DNA from: FCB group bacterium
Lineage (GTDB): Bacteria; Fidelibacterota; Marinisomatia; Marinisomatales; JAADGP01
Assembly: GCA_013152315.1 (NCBI GenBank)
Contig: JAADGP010000035.1
Location: forward strand, 1-46,418
Direction of reading: 5' to 3'
DNA length: 46,418 nucleotides
Shown: one piece after another, positions 1-12,013 of the stretch
Position numbering within the stretch: the stretch's first letter is position 1
Layout of the letters: each line of letters opens with the position of its first letter
Program-made: the position numbers and the translations under genes
The notes under the pieces: generated by a model
Databases searched by the model: none
What the model saw: only the letters and a program-made list of their open reading frames with translations
What the model was told of the DNA's origin: nothing

Positions 1-878
1 AAAGTAATGAGCAAGTCGGGCCGCAAGTCGGTTAATGCCGATTCGTCCTTCCGGGCCAAAATGATATCGGCATGTTTTACACAATTCTCCAGGGGATGAA
101 GATTGGTGATTACATCGCCGACAACCGGAATGTCGGCGTTTTTACATAATCGATTCAACGCTTCCAACAGGTCGGAATCTTTTTCCCCATGTCCTCCGAC
201 CAGCAACATCTTCTCAACACTCTGAATTTTGGTGACCAGTTTTCGCCACTGCTCATCGTCCAAAACAGCGGTACCATTTACCTCATCGATGATTCGGATA
301 TCGGAATCAAAACGGACTGTTTCGTCACCCCGGGGATAGAAGGGTTCCCGGATGGGGATATTCAGATGAACCGGCCCCGGAGGGAACGCCTGGGCGCAGT
401 TAACGGCATCGGAAACACTCCTTTCCACATGCCAGGCGGCATCGGCGTGCGCAGTATCCACGGGTAAATCGTAGCCGGCTTTAACATGCGGCGCATACAA
501 ATTCGATTGATGGATGGATTGGCCATCCTGTTGATCGATCCATTCCGGGGGACGATCGGCGGTGATCACGATAAGGGGAATATGCTGATAATAAGCTTCC
601 GTTACCGCGGGAGCATAATTCAGGGCCGCCGTGCCGGAAGTACACACGAGCACAACCGGTTTTTGTGTGCTCTGGGCGATTCCCAAGGCGATATATGCGG
701 CCGAGCGTTCGTCGCTGACCGTACGCACGTTTATCTTTTCATGTCGGGCAAAAGCCAGGGTCAATGGGGCGCATCGGGAACCGGGAGATAAAATCGCATT
801 GCTGATGCCCTTGCGGGCACAGATTTCGGCAATGTTAACGATTGCAGGTAAGAACATGGGTTTAGTGCCGTAACACAT
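1..878 (-). CDS. menD: 2-succinyl-5-enolpyruvyl-6-hydroxy-3-cyclohexene-1-carboxylate synthase, partial (3' end beyond left edge)
   Basis: Manual reverse translation gives MCYGTKPMFLPAIVNIAEICARKGISNAILSPGSRCAPLTLAFARHEKINVRTVSDERSAAYIALGIAQSTQKPVVLVCTSGTAALNYAPAVTEAYYQHIPLIVITADRPPEW..., a MenD ThDP-enzyme N-terminus. Overlaps the end of menF. Start at 878 or 857. Confidence 0.9.
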   Translation of the reverse strand, partial: MCYGTKPMFLPAIVNIAEICARKGISNAILSPGSRCAPLTLAFARHEKINVRTVSDERSAAYIALGIAQSTQKPVVLVCTSGTAALNYAPAVTEAYYQHIPLIVITADRPPEWIDQQDGQSIHQSNLYAPHVKAGYDLPVDTAHADAAWHVERSVSDAVNCAQAFPPGPVHLNIPIREPFYPRGDETVRFDSDIRIIDEVNGTAVLDDEQWRKLVTKIQSVEKMLLVGGHGEKDSDLLEALNRLCKNADIPVVGDVITNLHPLENCVKHADIILARKDESALTDLRPDLLIT

Positions 879-4398: not shown

Positions 4399-6459
4399 CT
4401 ATGGTGTATTCTTATCGGGGGTCGGTTTCTGGCTTGGCTTTCTGGCTGGTCGGCGACGCCTTCGGGAACGTGTATTCCCATTTTTGGAACGAATGATTTT
4501 CTTCCCTTCCAGAATCCGCTGAATATCATCCGCGTCAATTGTTTCATACTTCAGCAATTCTTCAGCCAGTCGGTGTAAAATATCCTTATTTTCTTCAATA
4601 ATACGTTCGGCTGTTTTTTGTGCTTTACGGACAACCCGGACAACTTCCTCATCAATGATTCGTGCCGTTACTTCGCTGTAATCGCGATGGGTCTGGATTT
4701 CCCGGCCCAGAAATATTTCCTCGTTTTTCTTTCCAAAGGTCATGGGACCCAAAACATCACTCATGCCCCACTCACAGACCATTTTACGGGCAATTATCGT
4801 AGCCTGCTCAATATCGTTTCCGGCGCCGGTTGTTAATTCATTGAAAATCCTTTTTTCCGCGGCCCGGCCACCCATCATGATCGCCAAACGTCCCTCGATA
4901 TATTTTTTGGAATAACCATGTTTTTCATCCATGGGAAGTTGCATCGTAACCCCCAGGGCCCGTCCCCGGGGAATAATGCTGACCTTATGTATCGGATCGG
5001 CGCCTTCGGTACGCACCGCGACCAGGGCATGACCGGCCTCATGGTAGGCGGTGATCTTTTTCTCCTCATCGGACAGAATCATGCTTTTTCGCTGAACCCC
5101 CATCATGACCTTGTCCTTGGCCTCTTCGAAATCCTCCATATCAACAGCCGTTTTTCGCTTACGGGCTGCCAGCAATGCGGCTTCGTTCACAATATTCGCC
5201 AGGTCAGCGCCCACCAAACCCGGCGTACCTTTGGCCAGGGCCTCAAGATCAACTTTTCGTTTATTGACCACGATATTTTTCGTGTGGACTTTCAATATGC
5301 CCAACCGTCCTTTGACATCGGGAACATCAACTACCACTTGTCGGTCGAAGCGTCCCGGACGCAGTAAGGCCGAATCCAGGACGTCCGGACGGTTGGTCGC
5401 CGCCATGACAATAATGTTCTGGTTCGGCTCAAATCCATCCAATTCCACCAGCAACTGATTCAGGGTTTGCTCACGTTCATCATGGCCGCCCCCCAGGCCT
5501 GCTCCACGCATACGGCCGACGGCATCCAATTCATCGATAAAAATGATACACGGATTATGCTTCTTCCCCTGTTCAAACAAGTCCCGAACACGGGAAGCGC
5601 CGACACCCACAAACATTTCCACAAAATCAGCCCCACTCAGACTAAAAAACGGTACGTTAGCTTCCCCGGCCACGGCGCGGGCCAGCAAGGTTTTTCCCGT
5701 TCCGGGAGGTCCGACCAACAATACCCCCTTGGGAATTTTCGCCCCCAATTTCTGAAACCGTTTGGGGTGCTTTAAAAAGGCGATAACTTCTTTTAATTCG
5801 TCCTTGGCTTCAACACATCCGGCAACATCATTGAAAGTAACTTTGGGCAGGTTGGTCGTCATTACCTTGGCGCGGGTTTTACCGAAATTGAAGATGCTTT
5901 TCATTCCTCCGCCCCCGCCCTGCATCCGGCGCATAATAAACAACCAGAACCCGATCAACAGGATCCACGGGAGCATATCCTTCAGCATATACACCGTCCA
6001 GTTAATGCTCTGTTCTTTGAAACTGTATTCCACGCCGTACTTATCCCATTCGGCCATGGCCTCCCGATCGATAAACGGCAGTTTAAGATAAAATCGGGTT
6101 ACGTTATCCAGGGTCCCGAACTCGGTTGTGACCGTTTGCGGCTCCGATAATTCACCGTGAAAAATGTCATCGATAATCGTTGCGGAAGTGATCTTACGCT
6201 GGGTTAAAAAATCACGGTACTGGAAATAATCTATTTCGACTTCTTTTCGGGCATTCTCGGTAAAAAGCCCCGAAAGAAAAATTGCCGCCATAATGATTAA
6301 CACCCAGATCAGGGATGTTTTACCGGCGCGTTTCCACTGGAAATTATTTTCAGGAATATTCGGTTTCCGGCTGTTTTTGGGCGCTTTCTTGGGCCGGCCC
6401 TTCACTTCTTTTTTTGGCCGTCGTGCTTTAGAAGAACGCGGTGATTCGTTTTTATTCAT
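4399..6459 (-). CDS. ftsH: ATP-dependent zinc metalloprotease FtsH
   Basis: AAA Walker [22 protein letters not shown] region, HEAGH zinc motif; 686 aa. Confidence 0.97.
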
Positions 6460-6994
6460 TTAAATTGTTTCCTTCCAGTCGGTATATGGCCGGTAAGTGG
6501 CGCATTTTTTGTTGGTAATCCAAACCATATCCGACGACAAAATCGGGAGGGATTTCAAATCCTACATAATCAATTGCGAATTTTACTTTCGCAACATCAG
6601 GTTTCAATAACAAGGTTACAATGGTTAATGACTTGGGACTTGCTCCTTCCAGGCGTTCTTTTAAAAATTGGATCGTTAACCCGGAATCGATAATATCTTC
6701 CACAATAATAACATGCCGGTTGGTAATATCGGCGGAAATATCTTTCAGCAATCTCACCGTGCCGGTGGATTCGGTTCCTGCGTAGCTGGATAATTTGATG
6801 AAATCCATTTCGCAGTCAATGGTCATTGCCCGCATCAGGTCCGCGAGAACAATAAAACTCCCATTTAATACGCCAATAAAAATCGGCACTTCATCCTTAA
6901 ACCGCTCCGATAATTGTTGCGCGATTTCCCGGACCCGATTCCGAATAACTTCGGCCGAAATAATTTCGGTTAAGGTATATTTACCGTATTGCAT
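6452..6994 (-). CDS. hpt: hypoxanthine phosphoribosyltransferase
   Basis: PRPP motif VIIVEDIIDSGLT; VGYGLDYQQKMRHLPAIYRL; tilS-hpt-ftsH context. Confidence 0.94.
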   Translation of the reverse strand: MQYGKYTLTEIISAEVIRNRVREIAQQLSERFKDEVPIFIGVLNGSFIVLADLMRAMTIDCEMDFIKLSSYAGTESTGTVRLLKDISADITNRHVIIVEDIIDSGLTIQFLKERLEGASPKSLTIVTLLLKPDVAKVKFAIDYVGFEIPPDFVVGYGLDYQQKMRHLPAIYRLEGNNLNE

Positions 6995-6996
6995 GT

Positions 6997-8379
6997 TTAC
7001 CCAACCTTAGGCACAATTGAAAGTTCCTCGAATCGCCTGGTTTGGGGAGTAACTTTCACCCGTTCGCTGATTCGCTGGCCACACAACCAGATAATTTCAT
7101 TCTTGCTCGCCAATACCAATTGACGCTGTTTGTTAAAACGATCCATTTTAATATCCGTTAGAAAATCACTGATCTTTTTATGCCCCTGCATACCGAGAGG
7201 CTGAAAATAATCGCCGGCGCACCAATTTCTCAGAATGAGTTTTTCATCCTTAATTACCTGTCCGTCGATTATCTCTTTCCAGGGATTTGTCCCCAAATCC
7301 TTGACAGAATCTACATCATTCCAGTTGAAGACAAAATCCCCACAATCAATTGATTTTCCGAATACCACGGGAATTTCCTTTTTCACACATGAGCCCGGTT
7401 GGTTCAATATCCAGTTTTCCCGGTCTTTCAATAGCAGCCAGCCGGCCGGAAAGGGCAACCAACTTCCGACTTTGGCCGATTTCAAAAAGGTCTTTAGTTG
7501 GGTGATCAAATGCCTTCTCGACAATGCATCGCCACCAAGCAACCGGGAAATTATCATTACTTGCAGAAGTACCGGCAACTTCGCCAATTCGCGAACCGCA
7601 AGCAGAAAACGACCATCACTCTCCCGGGTAACGACGGTACGCAGAGCATGCTCAACGGCATACTCCAGAATCGGTTCCGTTTCCCGAATATTTTCACATA
7701 CCTGATGAAAAGCCGCCACCAAGCCGGGATTGAGTTTCTCCCACTCGGGGATTACCCTGTGACGCAGATAATTTCTCGGATAATGAATATCCTTATTGGT
7801 TTCGTCTTCGCGGTACGGAATCTCATGCGCTTTCACATACGTTTCGATGACGGACCCGGGAAAAGGTAACAAGGGACGGATGATCCGGCCGCGCTTAGGA
7901 TGGATTCCACGCAATCCCTTAATTCCCGCGCCGGCGCCTAAACGCAATAAAATGGTCTCCACCTGATCATTTCCGTGGTGAGCGGTCGCGATCAGGTCGG
8001 CCCCTGTTTCCTGACGCATTTCTTCCAAAGCAAGGTAACGTTCTTTCCGCGCCCATGCTTCGATACTCTCCCCGGGCGATTTTGTCCGGGGATTTAATTT
8101 CCTTACGACAAAAGGGATGTTCCACTCTTTACAGATTTCGGCCACAAAATATTGATCGTTATCGGCGTTCGTCCGCAAACCGTGGTTCACATGGGCGGCG
8201 GTCAACCGCAATTGCCATTCCTCTTTAAGACCAGCCAGGAGATGCAACAAGCACAGCGAGTCCCTTCCCCCGGATACGGCGACCAATACATGTCGCCCGG
8301 GTTGAAGCAAGCGGGAAACGGCGGGATGAGCGATAAATTGTTTTTTCAAACCGGTAACACCGGAAGACATGAAACCCAA
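6997..8379 (-). CDS. tilS: tRNA(Ile)-lysidine synthase
   Basis: SGGRDSLCLLHLL PP-loop, HVNHGLR, ATAHHGNDQVETILLRL motifs; 460 aa. Confidence 0.94.
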   Translation of the reverse strand: MGFMSSGVTGLKKQFIAHPAVSRLLQPGRHVLVAVSGGRDSLCLLHLLAGLKEEWQLRLTAAHVNHGLRTNADNDQYFVAEICKEWNIPFVVRKLNPRTKSPGESIEAWARKERYLALEEMRQETGADLIATAHHGNDQVETILLRLGAGAGIKGLRGIHPKRGRIIRPLLPFPGSVIETYVKAHEIPYREDETNKDIHYPRNYLRHRVIPEWEKLNPGLVAAFHQVCENIRETEPILEYAVEHALRTVVTRESDGRFLLAVRELAKLPVLLQVMIISRLLGGDALSRRHLITQLKTFLKSAKVGSWLPFPAGWLLLKDRENWILNQPGSCVKKEIPVVFGKSIDCGDFVFNWNDVDSVKDLGTNPWKEIIDGQVIKDEKLILRNWCAGDYFQPLGMQGHKKISDFLTDIKMDRFNKQRQLVLASKNEIIWLCGQRISERVKVTPQTRRFEELSIVPKVG

Positions 8380-8386
8380 AACCTGT

Positions 8387-9334
8387 CTATTTTAATTGCG
8401 AGACAATCTCGGCCACTTCCGTAGCGGAAGACATAATATAAAAATGAATGCACGGAACTTTCGCCTCAATTAATTCATGACACTGTTGCAAGGCCCACTC
8501 AATTCCAACGCGTGTTATGTCTTCCTGCGATTGTTCCAAAATTTGTTCCGATAATTTCTCCGGGATATCTACGTAAAAGTTTCTGGGAATTGTCCGCAGG
8601 TGGAATTCCTTCGTCAAAATCTTGATCCCCGGAATAATGGGAATATCGATTCCTTCCGCTCTACAGCGGTCCACGAATGAAAAGTACGCCTGATTATTAA
8701 AATACATTTGCGTCACGATATAATCGGCTCCGGCATCGACTTTCGCTTTTAAATACTTAATATCGGTGGAAAGGTTCGGCGCTTCGTAATGTTTTTCGGG
8801 ATAACCGGCCACACCGATACAAAAATTCGTCGGCGTGGCATCCACCAGATCTTCCAGGTACTGGCCATTGTTCATGGCCTTTATTTGTTTAACCAGATCA
8901 ATAGCGTATTTATTCCGTGTTTTGCCACTGCGATTGGAAATATCCTGCCTGAGATCATCCCCCCGGACAGCCAATACATTATCGATCCCCAGATAGTTTA
9001 ATTCGATCAGGGCGTCTTCCGTTTCCTCCCGGGTAAATCCCCGACATAGAATATGGGGCACGGTCTCCACGTTATACCGATTCTTGATGGCGGCGCTGAG
9101 GCCGATGGTCCCCGGTCGCTTGCGCTTAACATGACGCCTGATCATACCATCCGGAAATTCTTCATAATATACCTCGGCCGAGCGACTCGTCAGATCAATA
9201 AAGGGCGGATCATAAGGCATCAATTGTTCAATTAAATCGAATACCCCCTGGATACTGCCACCCCGCCGGGGGGGGATAATTTCATAACTGAACAAGGTCT
9301 TGTTGGCTTTTTCGAGAAACTCGATGACTTTCAC
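8387..9334 (-). CDS. metF: methylenetetrahydrofolate reductase
   Basis: FSYEIIPPRRGG, NVLAVRGDD, GADYIVTQMYFNNQAYFSFVDRC motifs. Confidence 0.93.
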   Translation of the reverse strand: MKVIEFLEKANKTLFSYEIIPPRRGGSIQGVFDLIEQLMPYDPPFIDLTSRSAEVYYEEFPDGMIRRHVKRKRPGTIGLSAAIKNRYNVETVPHILCRGFTREETEDALIELNYLGIDNVLAVRGDDLRQDISNRSGKTRNKYAIDLVKQIKAMNNGQYLEDLVDATPTNFCIGVAGYPEKHYEAPNLSTDIKYLKAKVDAGADYIVTQMYFNNQAYFSFVDRCRAEGIDIPIIPGIKILTKEFHLRTIPRNFYVDIPEKLSEQILEQSQEDITRVGIEWALQQCHELIEAKVPCIHFYIMSSATEVAEIVSQLK

Positions 9335-9494: not shown

Positions 9495-10148
9495 TTACGA
9501 CAAATTTAATCGTCTTTGTACCGTAAGTAAAAAAGGGTTATGACGAATTTCCGATTCCATCGACGTCTCCGGGCCATGACCGGAGTAAATGGTGTAATGA
9601 CGAGGAATGACGGTTATCATTTTCTGCAGTGATTTTTCCAGGGTTTGCCAATCCCCGCCCGGGAGATCGGTCCTTCCGACGGAGCCGCGAAACAGGGTAT
9701 CCCCGACGAATACATGTTCATCGATAATAAAGCACGTTCCACCGGGCGTGTGCCCGGGAGTATGCAGTAATCCAACCCGGAAATTTTCAATTTCCAGGTC
9801 TTCCTGATCCCGGAACCAATAATCCACTTCCGGAGGCGCGCCCGGCACCAAACCGAACATACGGCAGGAATCAACATAGGTATTCAAAATCATTGCTTCT
9901 TCCCGATGTAAATAAAAGGGAATGGAAAAATGTTCGCGCAGGGGCTGGACGGCGCCGATATGATCCATGTGGGCGTGGGTATTCATGATGGCGACCGGCC
10001 GAAGCTCCAGTTTTTTAACCCAATTAATTAATTCATCGGCATCGTCGCCGGGATCGATAAAAAGCGCCTCCGGCGATCCCTCCCGCCACAGGAGGTAACA
10101 ATTTTCCTGGAATGGTCCGGTGACGATGGTTTGTATATTAAGACTCAA
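9495..10148 (-). CDS. MBL-fold metallo-hydrolase (glyoxalase II-like)
   Basis: NTHAHMDHIGAV zinc motif, HTPGHTPGGTCF, YSGHGPET; TTG start overlaps the TGA stop of the upstream gene. Confidence 0.9.
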   Translation of the reverse strand: MSLNIQTIVTGPFQENCYLLWREGSPEALFIDPGDDADELINWVKKLELRPVAIMNTHAHMDHIGAVQPLREHFSIPFYLHREEAMILNTYVDSCRMFGLVPGAPPEVDYWFRDQEDLEIENFRVGLLHTPGHTPGGTCFIIDEHVFVGDTLFRGSVGRTDLPGGDWQTLEKSLQKMITVIPRHYTIYSGHGPETSMESEIRHNPFLLTVQRRLNLS

Positions 10149-11209
10149 ATGTAGGCAAAGAATAGATCAGAAAGACATTGGATTTTATCCTCGTAGGAAT
10201 GAGGATACAGTAACCATTCGGTGGCGGAAATACTGCTTAAAATTGAGTTTCCGTCCTGGGGCGTGAAACAAAACCCGGTCACTTCGTGTTCATCCTTAAC
10301 ATTGATTGTTTGTTCAACGATGACGGTCTGGTTCAGAATGCGACCGAAATGACCCTGGTCCCGACCGAAAGAGAAAACGGTGCTGGTCATGTCTTTCGCC
10401 GTCAGGGCAACCAGCGGATTCGCCTGGAGTTGGTCCATGACTTTATTTACATTGGTAGGTTCTTTCACGACCAAACTAAACCACAGGACATGCATGTACT
10501 GGCTGTTAACCTTTAAAGCGGATGAAAAAAGATTGGGCTCAAGATTAACGGTACGGAACAGGTTGACGGCATCTTCGGCATGATGTGAACCAAATTTCGT
10601 CGATTGGTGCACCCCGACCTGGGGCGCCGGGATAAACCCGCCCGGTTGACTGATATCGTTTGCCCGCCGGATGCACACAAAGCGTCCTTCAATCAAATTA
10701 TCAGGACCGTCGCTAAAAGCTATGGTCTTCGTGATACATGACAGGTTATGCGTATTGCACGATACAATCTGGATGAATTGATCTCCCTGTTGCAGTGCTT
10801 CATCATTTATGCCCCGGGCATATTTTTTCCCGAACCCATCTTCACTTCCCTGGGCTAAAAAGCCATTTACCGAATCGCTATATTTGCGGTAATACTGTTC
10901 CTTGTTTTTGTGTCCGATTCCCCGGGGTGTACAGTCGATCACTACCGAAGCGCGGTGAATCGCCTGGTCGGACTCAAAGTCGGGATCCATTCCCAGGGCC
11001 CGAAAGCCCTCCATTTTATTTTCATCAACCACCAACCGGGCGCCCCGGGCAATCAAACTCATGACTTTGGAGCGGTCACGTTTCAACGGGGAATTCTTAT
11101 GGAAAGTTATTTCATCGATCCCCAACTGTTCCCGGTAATCACACAATAAGCCGATTAATGGCTCACCAATCGTACCGGTACCAACAATATGTACAATCCT
11201 TCGCTGCAT
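10145..11209 (-). CDS. archaeal type II glyceraldehyde-3-phosphate dehydrogenase-like protein
   Basis: GTGTIG Rossmann motif, VVIDCTPRGIGHKNKEQYY, FLAQGSE, VSCNTHNLSC (compare type II GAPDH SCNTTGL), SHHAEDAVNLFRTVNLE (compare SHHGPDVQT). 354 aa. Substrate not determinable from sequence. Confidence 0.72.
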   Translation of the reverse strand: MQRRIVHIVGTGTIGEPLIGLLCDYREQLGIDEITFHKNSPLKRDRSKVMSLIARGARLVVDENKMEGFRALGMDPDFESDQAIHRASVVIDCTPRGIGHKNKEQYYRKYSDSVNGFLAQGSEDGFGKKYARGINDEALQQGDQFIQIVSCNTHNLSCITKTIAFSDGPDNLIEGRFVCIRRANDISQPGGFIPAPQVGVHQSTKFGSHHAEDAVNLFRTVNLEPNLFSSALKVNSQYMHVLWFSLVVKEPTNVNKVMDQLQANPLVALTAKDMTSTVFSFGRDQGHFGRILNQTVIVEQTINVKDEHEVTGFCFTPQDGNSILSSISATEWLLYPHSYEDKIQCLSDLFFAYI

Positions 11210-11214
11210 TCAAT

Positions 11215-11352
11215 CTATTCCTTCGGGCTGATGTTTGATCTTCGCCGGATAATGCGACCCTCTTGTCTCAACTGATAAACAAACCAACCCAAAATAGTAA
11301 GGAACACCAGGGAGACGGCCGTCACGAAATAACTGAGGAAATTATAAACCAT
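11215..11352 (-). CDS. ccmD: CcmD-like small heme-exporter subunit
   Basis: Manual translation MVYNFLSYFVTAVSLVFLTILGWFVYQLRQEGRIIRRRSNISPKE*: one TM helix with a basic tail, overlapping the 3' end of ccmC. Not in the supplied ORF track. Confidence 0.72.
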   Translation of the reverse strand: MVYNFLSYFVTAVSLVFLTILGWFVYQLRQEGRIIRRRSNISPKE

Positions 11353-12013
11353 TTTCAGCCTCCTCATGCTTGAGTTTCAGAATATGGATCCGGAAACGCA
11401 ACATAATTATGTATAATAACGTAAAGGTGATTAACGAATAGAAGAAGGGAATTAAAATACGATGTGGCTGGGCCACCATTTCGATTTGCGGGTGCGATTG
11501 GATCTCCGGGGACCAGAATTTTACCGATAGAAAAATAATCGGCACATCCACGAAAGCCACGATACCAATGATCGCCGCGTAGCGGGCGACTCTTTCCGGA
11601 TGGCCGCCGAATTCCCGTAACATGAAATACCCGATGTAAACCAAAAACAAAATCAGGGTAGTGGTCAACCGCGGTTCCCAGATCCACGGTTTGCCCCAGA
11701 TCGGTTTCGCCCAGATCGGACCGGTAATCAGGACCAGAGTCGTATACATTGTGCCCAGTTCGGCGGCGGCCAGGCCGACGCGATCCCAGTAATAGTCCTT
11801 TTTGATCAAAAATAAAATCCCGGCAACCATCACTACAAAGTAGGACAGAAAGGCTGTCCAGGCTACCGGCACGTGTACGTAAAATATTTTTTGTGCCCAG
11901 TGTTGGTCCGGCACCATGGGGGTGTAAGTAACAACCACCCACATGTCTATTGCCAACATTAACAGAACCAACCCCAGCCACACACTATTTTTCTTATCGG
12001 CAAAAAAGCGCAT
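11342..12013 (-). CDS. ccmC: cytochrome c biogenesis heme-handling protein CcmC
   Basis: FYVHVPVAW, tryptophan-rich WGKPWIWEPRLT, multi-TM; between ccmB and ccmD. Confidence 0.9.
   Translation of the reverse strand: MRFFADKKNSVWLGLVLLMLAIDMWVVVTYTPMVPDQHWAQKIFYVHVPVAWTAFLSYFVVMVAGILFLIKKDYYWDRVGLAAAELGTMYTTLVLITGPIWAKPIWGKPWIWEPRLTTTLILFLVYIGYFMLREFGGHPERVARYAAIIGIVAFVDVPIIFLSVKFWSPEIQSHPQIEMVAQPHRILIPFFYSLITFTLLYIIMLRFRIHILKLKHEEAENGL

Follow-up and report, generated by a model that had tools for sequence, protein, structure and literature searches.

The window, a stretch of 46,418 nucleotides from a genome of Candidatus Neomarinimicrobiota (Marinimicrobia, SAR406; GTDB Fidelibacterota), holds genes in the order mcm-ccmE-ccmF-small ORF-ccmA-ccmB-ccmC-(ccmD-like)-GAPDH-like-hydrolase-metF-tilS-hpt-ftsH-folP, in which ccmA, ccmB and ccmE were named from sequence and position (Table 1). 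A reading of this DNA made from its letters (hereafter the sequence-only reading) had placed the GAPDH-like open reading frame at exactly the limits that we find; its coding strand is the minus strand, and the plus-strand frame over the same interval contains many stops. All of the motifs quoted in that reading were located in the translation, namely GTGTIG (residues 10-15), DCTPRGIGHKN (92-102), VSCNTHNLSC (149-158) and SHHAEDAV (208-215). Five bases separate the end of the upstream 45-aa ORF from the GAPDH-like ATG, and in size, position and make-up this small predicted product resembles CcmD.

Table 1. Features of the window in and around the GAPDH-like gene
Feature	Position	Strand	Remarks
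GAPDH-like gene	10145..11209	minus (11209..10145)	354 aa, ATG start
Domains of the GAPDH-like protein	residues ~1-150; ~151-354		Rossmann cofactor domain; catalytic domain
Cys151 codon (VSCNTHN motif)	10757..10759	minus	aligned to M. fervidus Cys140
His240 codon (QYMH motif)	10490..10492	minus	aligned to M. fervidus His219
Metallo-beta-lactamase-fold hydrolase (glyoxalase II-like)	9495..10148	minus	4-base overlap with the GAPDH-like stop
CcmD-like ORF, 45 aa	11215..11352	minus	one membrane helix, then basic tail
ccmC, cytochrome c maturation	11342..12013	minus	ccmB, ccmA, ccmF, ccmE upstream to 16244
metF-like methylenetetrahydrofolate reductase	8387..9334	minus	downstream of the GAPDH-like gene
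tilS, hpt (HPRT), ftsH housekeeping genes	4399..8379	minus	

At almost every host locus the genes tilS-hpt-ftsH lie downstream of the GAPDH-like gene, and the order GAPDH-like-tilS-hpt-ftsH persists in family f29, whose copies are just ~48% identical to the window protein. The metallo-hydrolase family was present at 45 of the 67 host loci; an obligatory tie to this neighbour was rejected, given ~20 loci that lack the hydrolase and have tilS directly downstream, and a link with cytochrome c maturation was rejected as well, the GAPDH-like gene being kept at loci without ccm genes. The main context of the gene consists of cytochrome c maturation and housekeeping genes and is not glycolytic.

The sequence-only reading had proposed a profile search, a structure prediction and a phylogeny. 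The profile search returned a remote homologue of type II GAPDH: NCBIfam NF003251 matched the window protein with 91.5 bits (E=5e-26), below its curated cut-off of 185, and TIGR01546 with 65.6 bits (E=4.3e-18), below its cut-off of 232.9. The subfamily members tested scored 71-103 bits against NF003251, all well below the 185-bit cut-off, while canonical bacterial type II GAPDHs reached 439-454 bits. These type II models were the sole NCBIfam matches. Furthermore, phmmer against the PDB matched four sequences, every one an archaeal GAPDH (best E=3e-14), the best E improving to 9.6e-26 when a family profile of 46 relatives was used, and a profile comparison with canonical bacterial type II GAPDHs gave a probability of 99.4% (E=7e-22). 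Membership of the classical family (PF02800/PF00044) was not indicated (Pfam Gp_dh_C, E=0.029, not significant; PF02800 score of 14.4 bits, below the 24.4-bit cut-off), and the active-site motif reads SCNTHN rather than the classical SCTTN. Other dehydrogenase families were considered and discarded, as Pfam and NCBIfam gave GAPDH alone; homoserine and saccharopine dehydrogenases, which the sequence-only reading had named as outcomes that would speak against it, gave no match in either library at E<=1. Within the wider superfamily, significant homology was therefore confined to type II GAPDH.

The AlphaFold model of the window protein (pLDDT 92.4, pTM 0.91) has the two-domain GAPDH fold, and it lies nearest to archaeal structures: the six best Foldseek matches in the PDB (2yyy, 2czc, 1cf2, 1b7g) were all archaeal GAPDHs (TM 0.77-0.81), with classical GAPDH and E4PDH ranking below them (TM 0.57-0.68). 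The C-terminal ~110 residues had been described as divergent, and similarity is indeed weak past about residue 275; the fold is nonetheless kept there, and the region carries invariant motifs of its own (SFGRD, FTPQDGNS). In the phylogeny, very long branches set the whole subfamily apart from canonical type II enzymes. The protein is thus of the type II GAPDH lineage in the wide sense, outside the curated membership cut-off, and represents a distinct, divergent and previously uncharacterised bacterial subfamily of a known kind of enzyme.

Comparison with known enzymes delimits this subfamily further. With archaeal type II GAPDH (TIGR01546, NF003251; 1cf2, 2yyy, 2czc, 1b7g) the window protein shares the fold (TM ~0.8), the equivalent Cys and His, the RR and SHH elements, DCTPxGxGxKN and a lysine at the Lys33 position, yet it is only ~20-24% identical, has its own motifs (SCNTHN, AQGSExGFG, QYMH, SFGRDxG and FTPQDGNS) and belongs to a subfamily hosted by bacteria and phages. 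Canonical type II GAPDHs also occur in bacteria: Methylocystis, Meiothermus, Pontibacter and others carry plasmid genes annotated as such, and in some cases PFK or glycogen phosphorylase genes lie nearby. These enzymes are only ~24% identical to the window protein, and no branches in the tree are longer than those that part them from its subfamily. Classical (type I) GAPDH has the same superfold at lower TM (0.57-0.68), and its reaction is the one proposed for the window protein; it has the SCTTN active site and is encoded elsewhere in Marinimicrobia genomes, as a tandem pair.

The active site was examined by aligning the window protein with the PDB sequences. Relative to the M. fervidus enzyme, Cys151 corresponds to Cys140, Arg181/Arg182 to Arg167/Arg168, Asp185 to Asp171, His209/His210 to His193/His194, His240 to His219 and Lys38 to Lys33. 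In the archaeal enzyme Cys140 and His219 form the catalytic pair, and Cys151 and His240 are their putative equivalents. Across 67 host and 54 viral full-length proteins, Cys151, His240, Arg181, Arg182, Asp185, His210, Gln188, His201 and Lys38 are invariant, and His209 is conserved in all but one. The sequence-only reading was right to see a catalytic-type cysteine in VSCNTHNLSC, which is invariant in all 121 proteins, but it had mistaken the catalytic histidine: SHHAEDAV corresponds to the conserved archaeal SHHGPDV (His193/194), a separate active-site element, and the residue aligned with His219 lies in QYMH. Its broader claim of a bacterial homologue of archaeal-type GAPDH with Cys and His retained was borne out by the profiles, the PDB matches and the alignment. 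The surroundings of the active site differ from the canonical form (SCNTHN for SCNTTG, GSExGFG for GGEKH, plus FTPQDGNS near the C-terminus), and on these residues a shifted substrate is conceivable; the lysine at the Lys33 position makes a preference for NADP possible.

Within the phylum, the GAPDH-like gene was detected in 185 of 245 genomes and in 75 of the 94 of high quality. A scan of 85,000 species, which reaches close relatives only and on which the restriction to this phylum rests, yielded 66 loci, all from this phylum or from vaguely or doubtfully titled records that share its synteny. One such record (L028, PAWD01000039.1), titled Thaumarchaeota archaeon SAT137, shows Marinimicrobia synteny with a 72% identical GAPDH-like gene and is probably a mislabelled bin. 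A genome of the same genus as the window (G001, 99% complete) is without the gene, which nearly all of its relatives have, and holds the classical tandem GAPDH pair; its absence there reflects either recent loss or an assembly gap. A type II GAPDH from Marinimicrobia was not described in any paper that our literature search turned up.

The sequence-only reading had also asked whether the same genome encodes a classical GAPDH, and it does, as two tandem genes (G000:C134; L088 1012-2088 and 2085-3083). In this phylum classical GAPDH genes stand in tandem and in most cases overlap by 4 bases (L228-L233, L235-L239). The first of the two has kept the His but lost the catalytic Cys, which is replaced by Ser in most and by Ala in L233 (SSTTQ/SSTTN in place of SCTTN). 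Outside family f23, 12 of the 13 genomes sampled show this pattern, and the first copy is a conserved pseudo-GAPDH and perhaps a regulatory subunit.

Among the 94 high-quality genomes, 62 have both GAPDH types, 13 the GAPDH-like gene only, 18 the classical gene only and 1 neither. Since complementarity of the two types across this set was not significant (Fisher p=0.29), we place the argument for function on the streamlined family and the Calvin-cycle clusters. No classical GAPDH was found in the 11 genomes checked of streamlined family f15 (0.8-1.0 Mb), including G050 (2 contigs, 95% complete), G025 (5 contigs, 96%) and G015 (98%), where PF02800 matches, if any, were weak and fell inside the GAPDH-like gene; the PF02800 search likewise found none in several f16 and f9 genomes. 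Phosphorylating GAPDH handles the substrate of PGK in the forward direction and its product in the backward direction. The glycolytic partners are retained in f15 (PGK in 10/11 genomes, TIM in 10/10, enolase in 10/11), and over the genomes tested of the f15 and f16/f9 type PGK was present in 21 of 22 and TIM, adjoining PGK, in 18 of 18. Because PGK, TIM and enolase are kept where classical GAPDH is lacking, the GAPDH-like protein is the best GAPDH candidate in these streamlined genomes.

RuBisCO was found in only two of the 245 genomes of the phylum, both metagenome bins and from different families (G026 and G129), and each has a second GAPDH-like gene, which lies with those for RuBisCO form II and PRK. 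The two copies are 79% identical to each other, and that of G026 (L210 6152-7234) is ~49% identical to the window protein. The clusters run RuBisCO form II-PRK-CBS (seen in G026)-GAPDH-like-pyridine nucleotide-disulfide reductase; G026 continues with ribulose-phosphate epimerase, transketolase and RpiB, and the G129 contig stops after the reductase. The G026 assignments exceed their profile cut-offs (RuBisCO NF010002, 847 bits against 489; PRK, 365 against 236; transketolase, 701 against 682; Rpe, 271 against 212; RpiB, 166 against 135). No other GAPDH gene was seen within either cluster, and the simplest reading is that the GAPDH-like copy supplies the GAPDH step of the Calvin cycle. Both clusters (L210, G026:C28; L224, G129:C34) are preceded by a gene whose sequence suggests a sigma-54-type regulator.

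The subfamily extends to viruses. A profile-guided scan of IMG/VR recovered ~77 loci, 41-57% identical, on contigs of up to 284 kb. On one of these (L094) the GAPDH-like gene lies between genes for the terminase large subunit (phrog_675) and the portal protein (phrog_16240), which together with conserved synteny places it inside genuine phage sequence. In approximately 45 viral contigs the gene has a constant set of neighbours, among them genes for a PhoH-like ATPase (phrog_2765), a protease and an exonuclease; RecA-like, primase-like and DnaJ-like genes are neighbours at L101 and L110, and ribonucleotide reductase, topoisomerase and helicase at L151, those names given here without a phrog number being read from sequence. 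None of the genes seen adjoining the viral copies was glycolytic. PHROGs has no family for the GAPDH-like protein, a search of 50,697 phage records gave just one weak, unannotated match, and a BFVD fold search no convincing viral relative; the viral homologues all come from IMG/VR. Two further genes recur near the viral copies. A tubulin/FtsZ-like product, identified by eye (FIGVGGGGGKMAKAF...; L103 3363-4487 and related loci, cluster F12), is encoded a few genes upstream in 13 contigs and has no PHROGs match, and 53 phage contigs have a nearby gene for a trypsin-like protease (cluster F1, for example L167 6486-7268), which in most of them is encoded on the opposite strand.

Close viral pairs gave a dN/dS of ~0.06, a sign of strong purifying selection, indicating that selection preserves the protein in these viruses. 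On the best tree the viral copies need four changes, and by well-supported branches at least two, and the viral L092 is nested in a host clade (support 100/98); together these point to more than one transfer between host and virus. The tree also suggests that the phages infect Marinimicrobia. As with phage auxiliary metabolic genes for carbon metabolism, a central carbon enzyme is carried on phage contigs, here of a type II-like subfamily. GAPDH is among the viral genes that a 2025 study of soil metagenomes lists as new (PMC12615777), and our literature search found no report of a viral type II GAPDH.

Taken together, the occurrence as sole GAPDH candidate in streamlined genomes, the Calvin-cluster copies, and the fold and active site argue for GAPDH function, and we propose with considerable confidence that the protein is a divergent bacterial type II phosphorylating GAPDH, working beside the classical enzyme, alone, in Calvin clusters or on phages; the reaction and its direction, the cofactor preferred and the advantage to phages are what we infer. 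By genomic inference its place in the pathway lies between TIM and PGK. Cys151, activated by His240, would attack the aldehyde of glyceraldehyde-3-phosphate, hydride would pass to NAD(P)+ in the N-terminal Rossmann domain, and inorganic phosphate, held by Arg181/Arg182 and the His209/His210 region, would release 1,3-bisphosphoglycerate; CO2-fixing or sugar-making cells would run the reaction in reverse, probably with a preference for NADPH. In most Marinimicrobia the enzyme would work alongside classical GAPDH and in streamlined lineages as the sole GAPDH, with a dedicated Calvin-cluster copy in two lineages, and phages would carry it as a metabolic gene.

The sequence-only reading had instead raised a different aldehyde or acyl-phosphate substrate, or a role as redox sensor. 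Neither is supported, as a sole GAPDH candidate that occurs with PGK, TIM and enolase and has a paralogue in Calvin clusters fits an ordinary phosphorylating GAPDH; ordinary GAPDH function is more probable than either idea. The active-site motifs unlike those of canonical type II GAPDH, the E4PDH structures among the Foldseek matches and the presence of classical GAPDH in most hosts would suit a dehydrogenase of the same fold and Cys/His chemistry acting on another phosphorylated aldehyde, such as D-erythrose-4-phosphate for vitamin B6 synthesis. We consider this unlikely, for archaeal GAPDHs outrank E4PDH by both sequence and fold, and such an enzyme would leave without a GAPDH candidate both the genomes that keep PGK, TIM and enolase and the RuBisCO-PRK clusters, which show no other GAPDH gene.

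It is more improbable still that the protein is a non-phosphorylating NADP-dependent glyceraldehyde-3-phosphate dehydrogenase, with GapN-like chemistry on a GAPDH fold and a one-way reaction to 3-phosphoglycerate and NADPH. Such cofactor supply would suit phages and Lys38, at the M. fervidus Lys33 position, is invariant; however, in the Calvin cycle the enzyme must work reductively from 1,3-BPG, a genome with PGK and no other GAPDH depends on the phosphorylating reaction, and the phosphate-site Arg and His residues are retained. An equally small chance is left to a catalytically dead or regulatory protein (a redox or aldehyde sensor, or a moonlighting protein), to which the non-glycolytic main context and the phage copies without glycolytic neighbours would correspond, but against which stand the invariance of catalytic and substrate residues across 121 proteins, the purifying selection in phages, the copies in Calvin-cycle clusters and the contrast with the classical paralogue of the same genomes, in which the Cys is visibly lost.

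GAPDH is among the most conserved enzymes of central metabolism. Under the preferred reading of a phosphorylating GAPDH, the chemistry is very probably ordinary, and it is the lineage and distribution that are unusual. A wider scenario, on which we are evenly divided, is that phosphorylating GAPDH has a third separate branch, which originated or survived in Marinimicrobia, took the place of the classical enzyme in streamlined lineages, serves a rare Calvin cycle and moved more than once between bacteria and phages, which may use it to redirect triose-phosphate and NADPH flow in the host. Because curated models miss this form, which falls below their cut-offs, streamlined SAR406 genomes appear to lack GAPDH; once this enzyme is recognised, their glycolysis and gluconeogenesis are complete, the Marinimicrobia Calvin-cycle clusters have an assigned GAPDH, and a phage metabolic gene absent from the PHROGs library comes to light. 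The phylum is one of abundant ocean bacteria, and the gene is almost universal in it.
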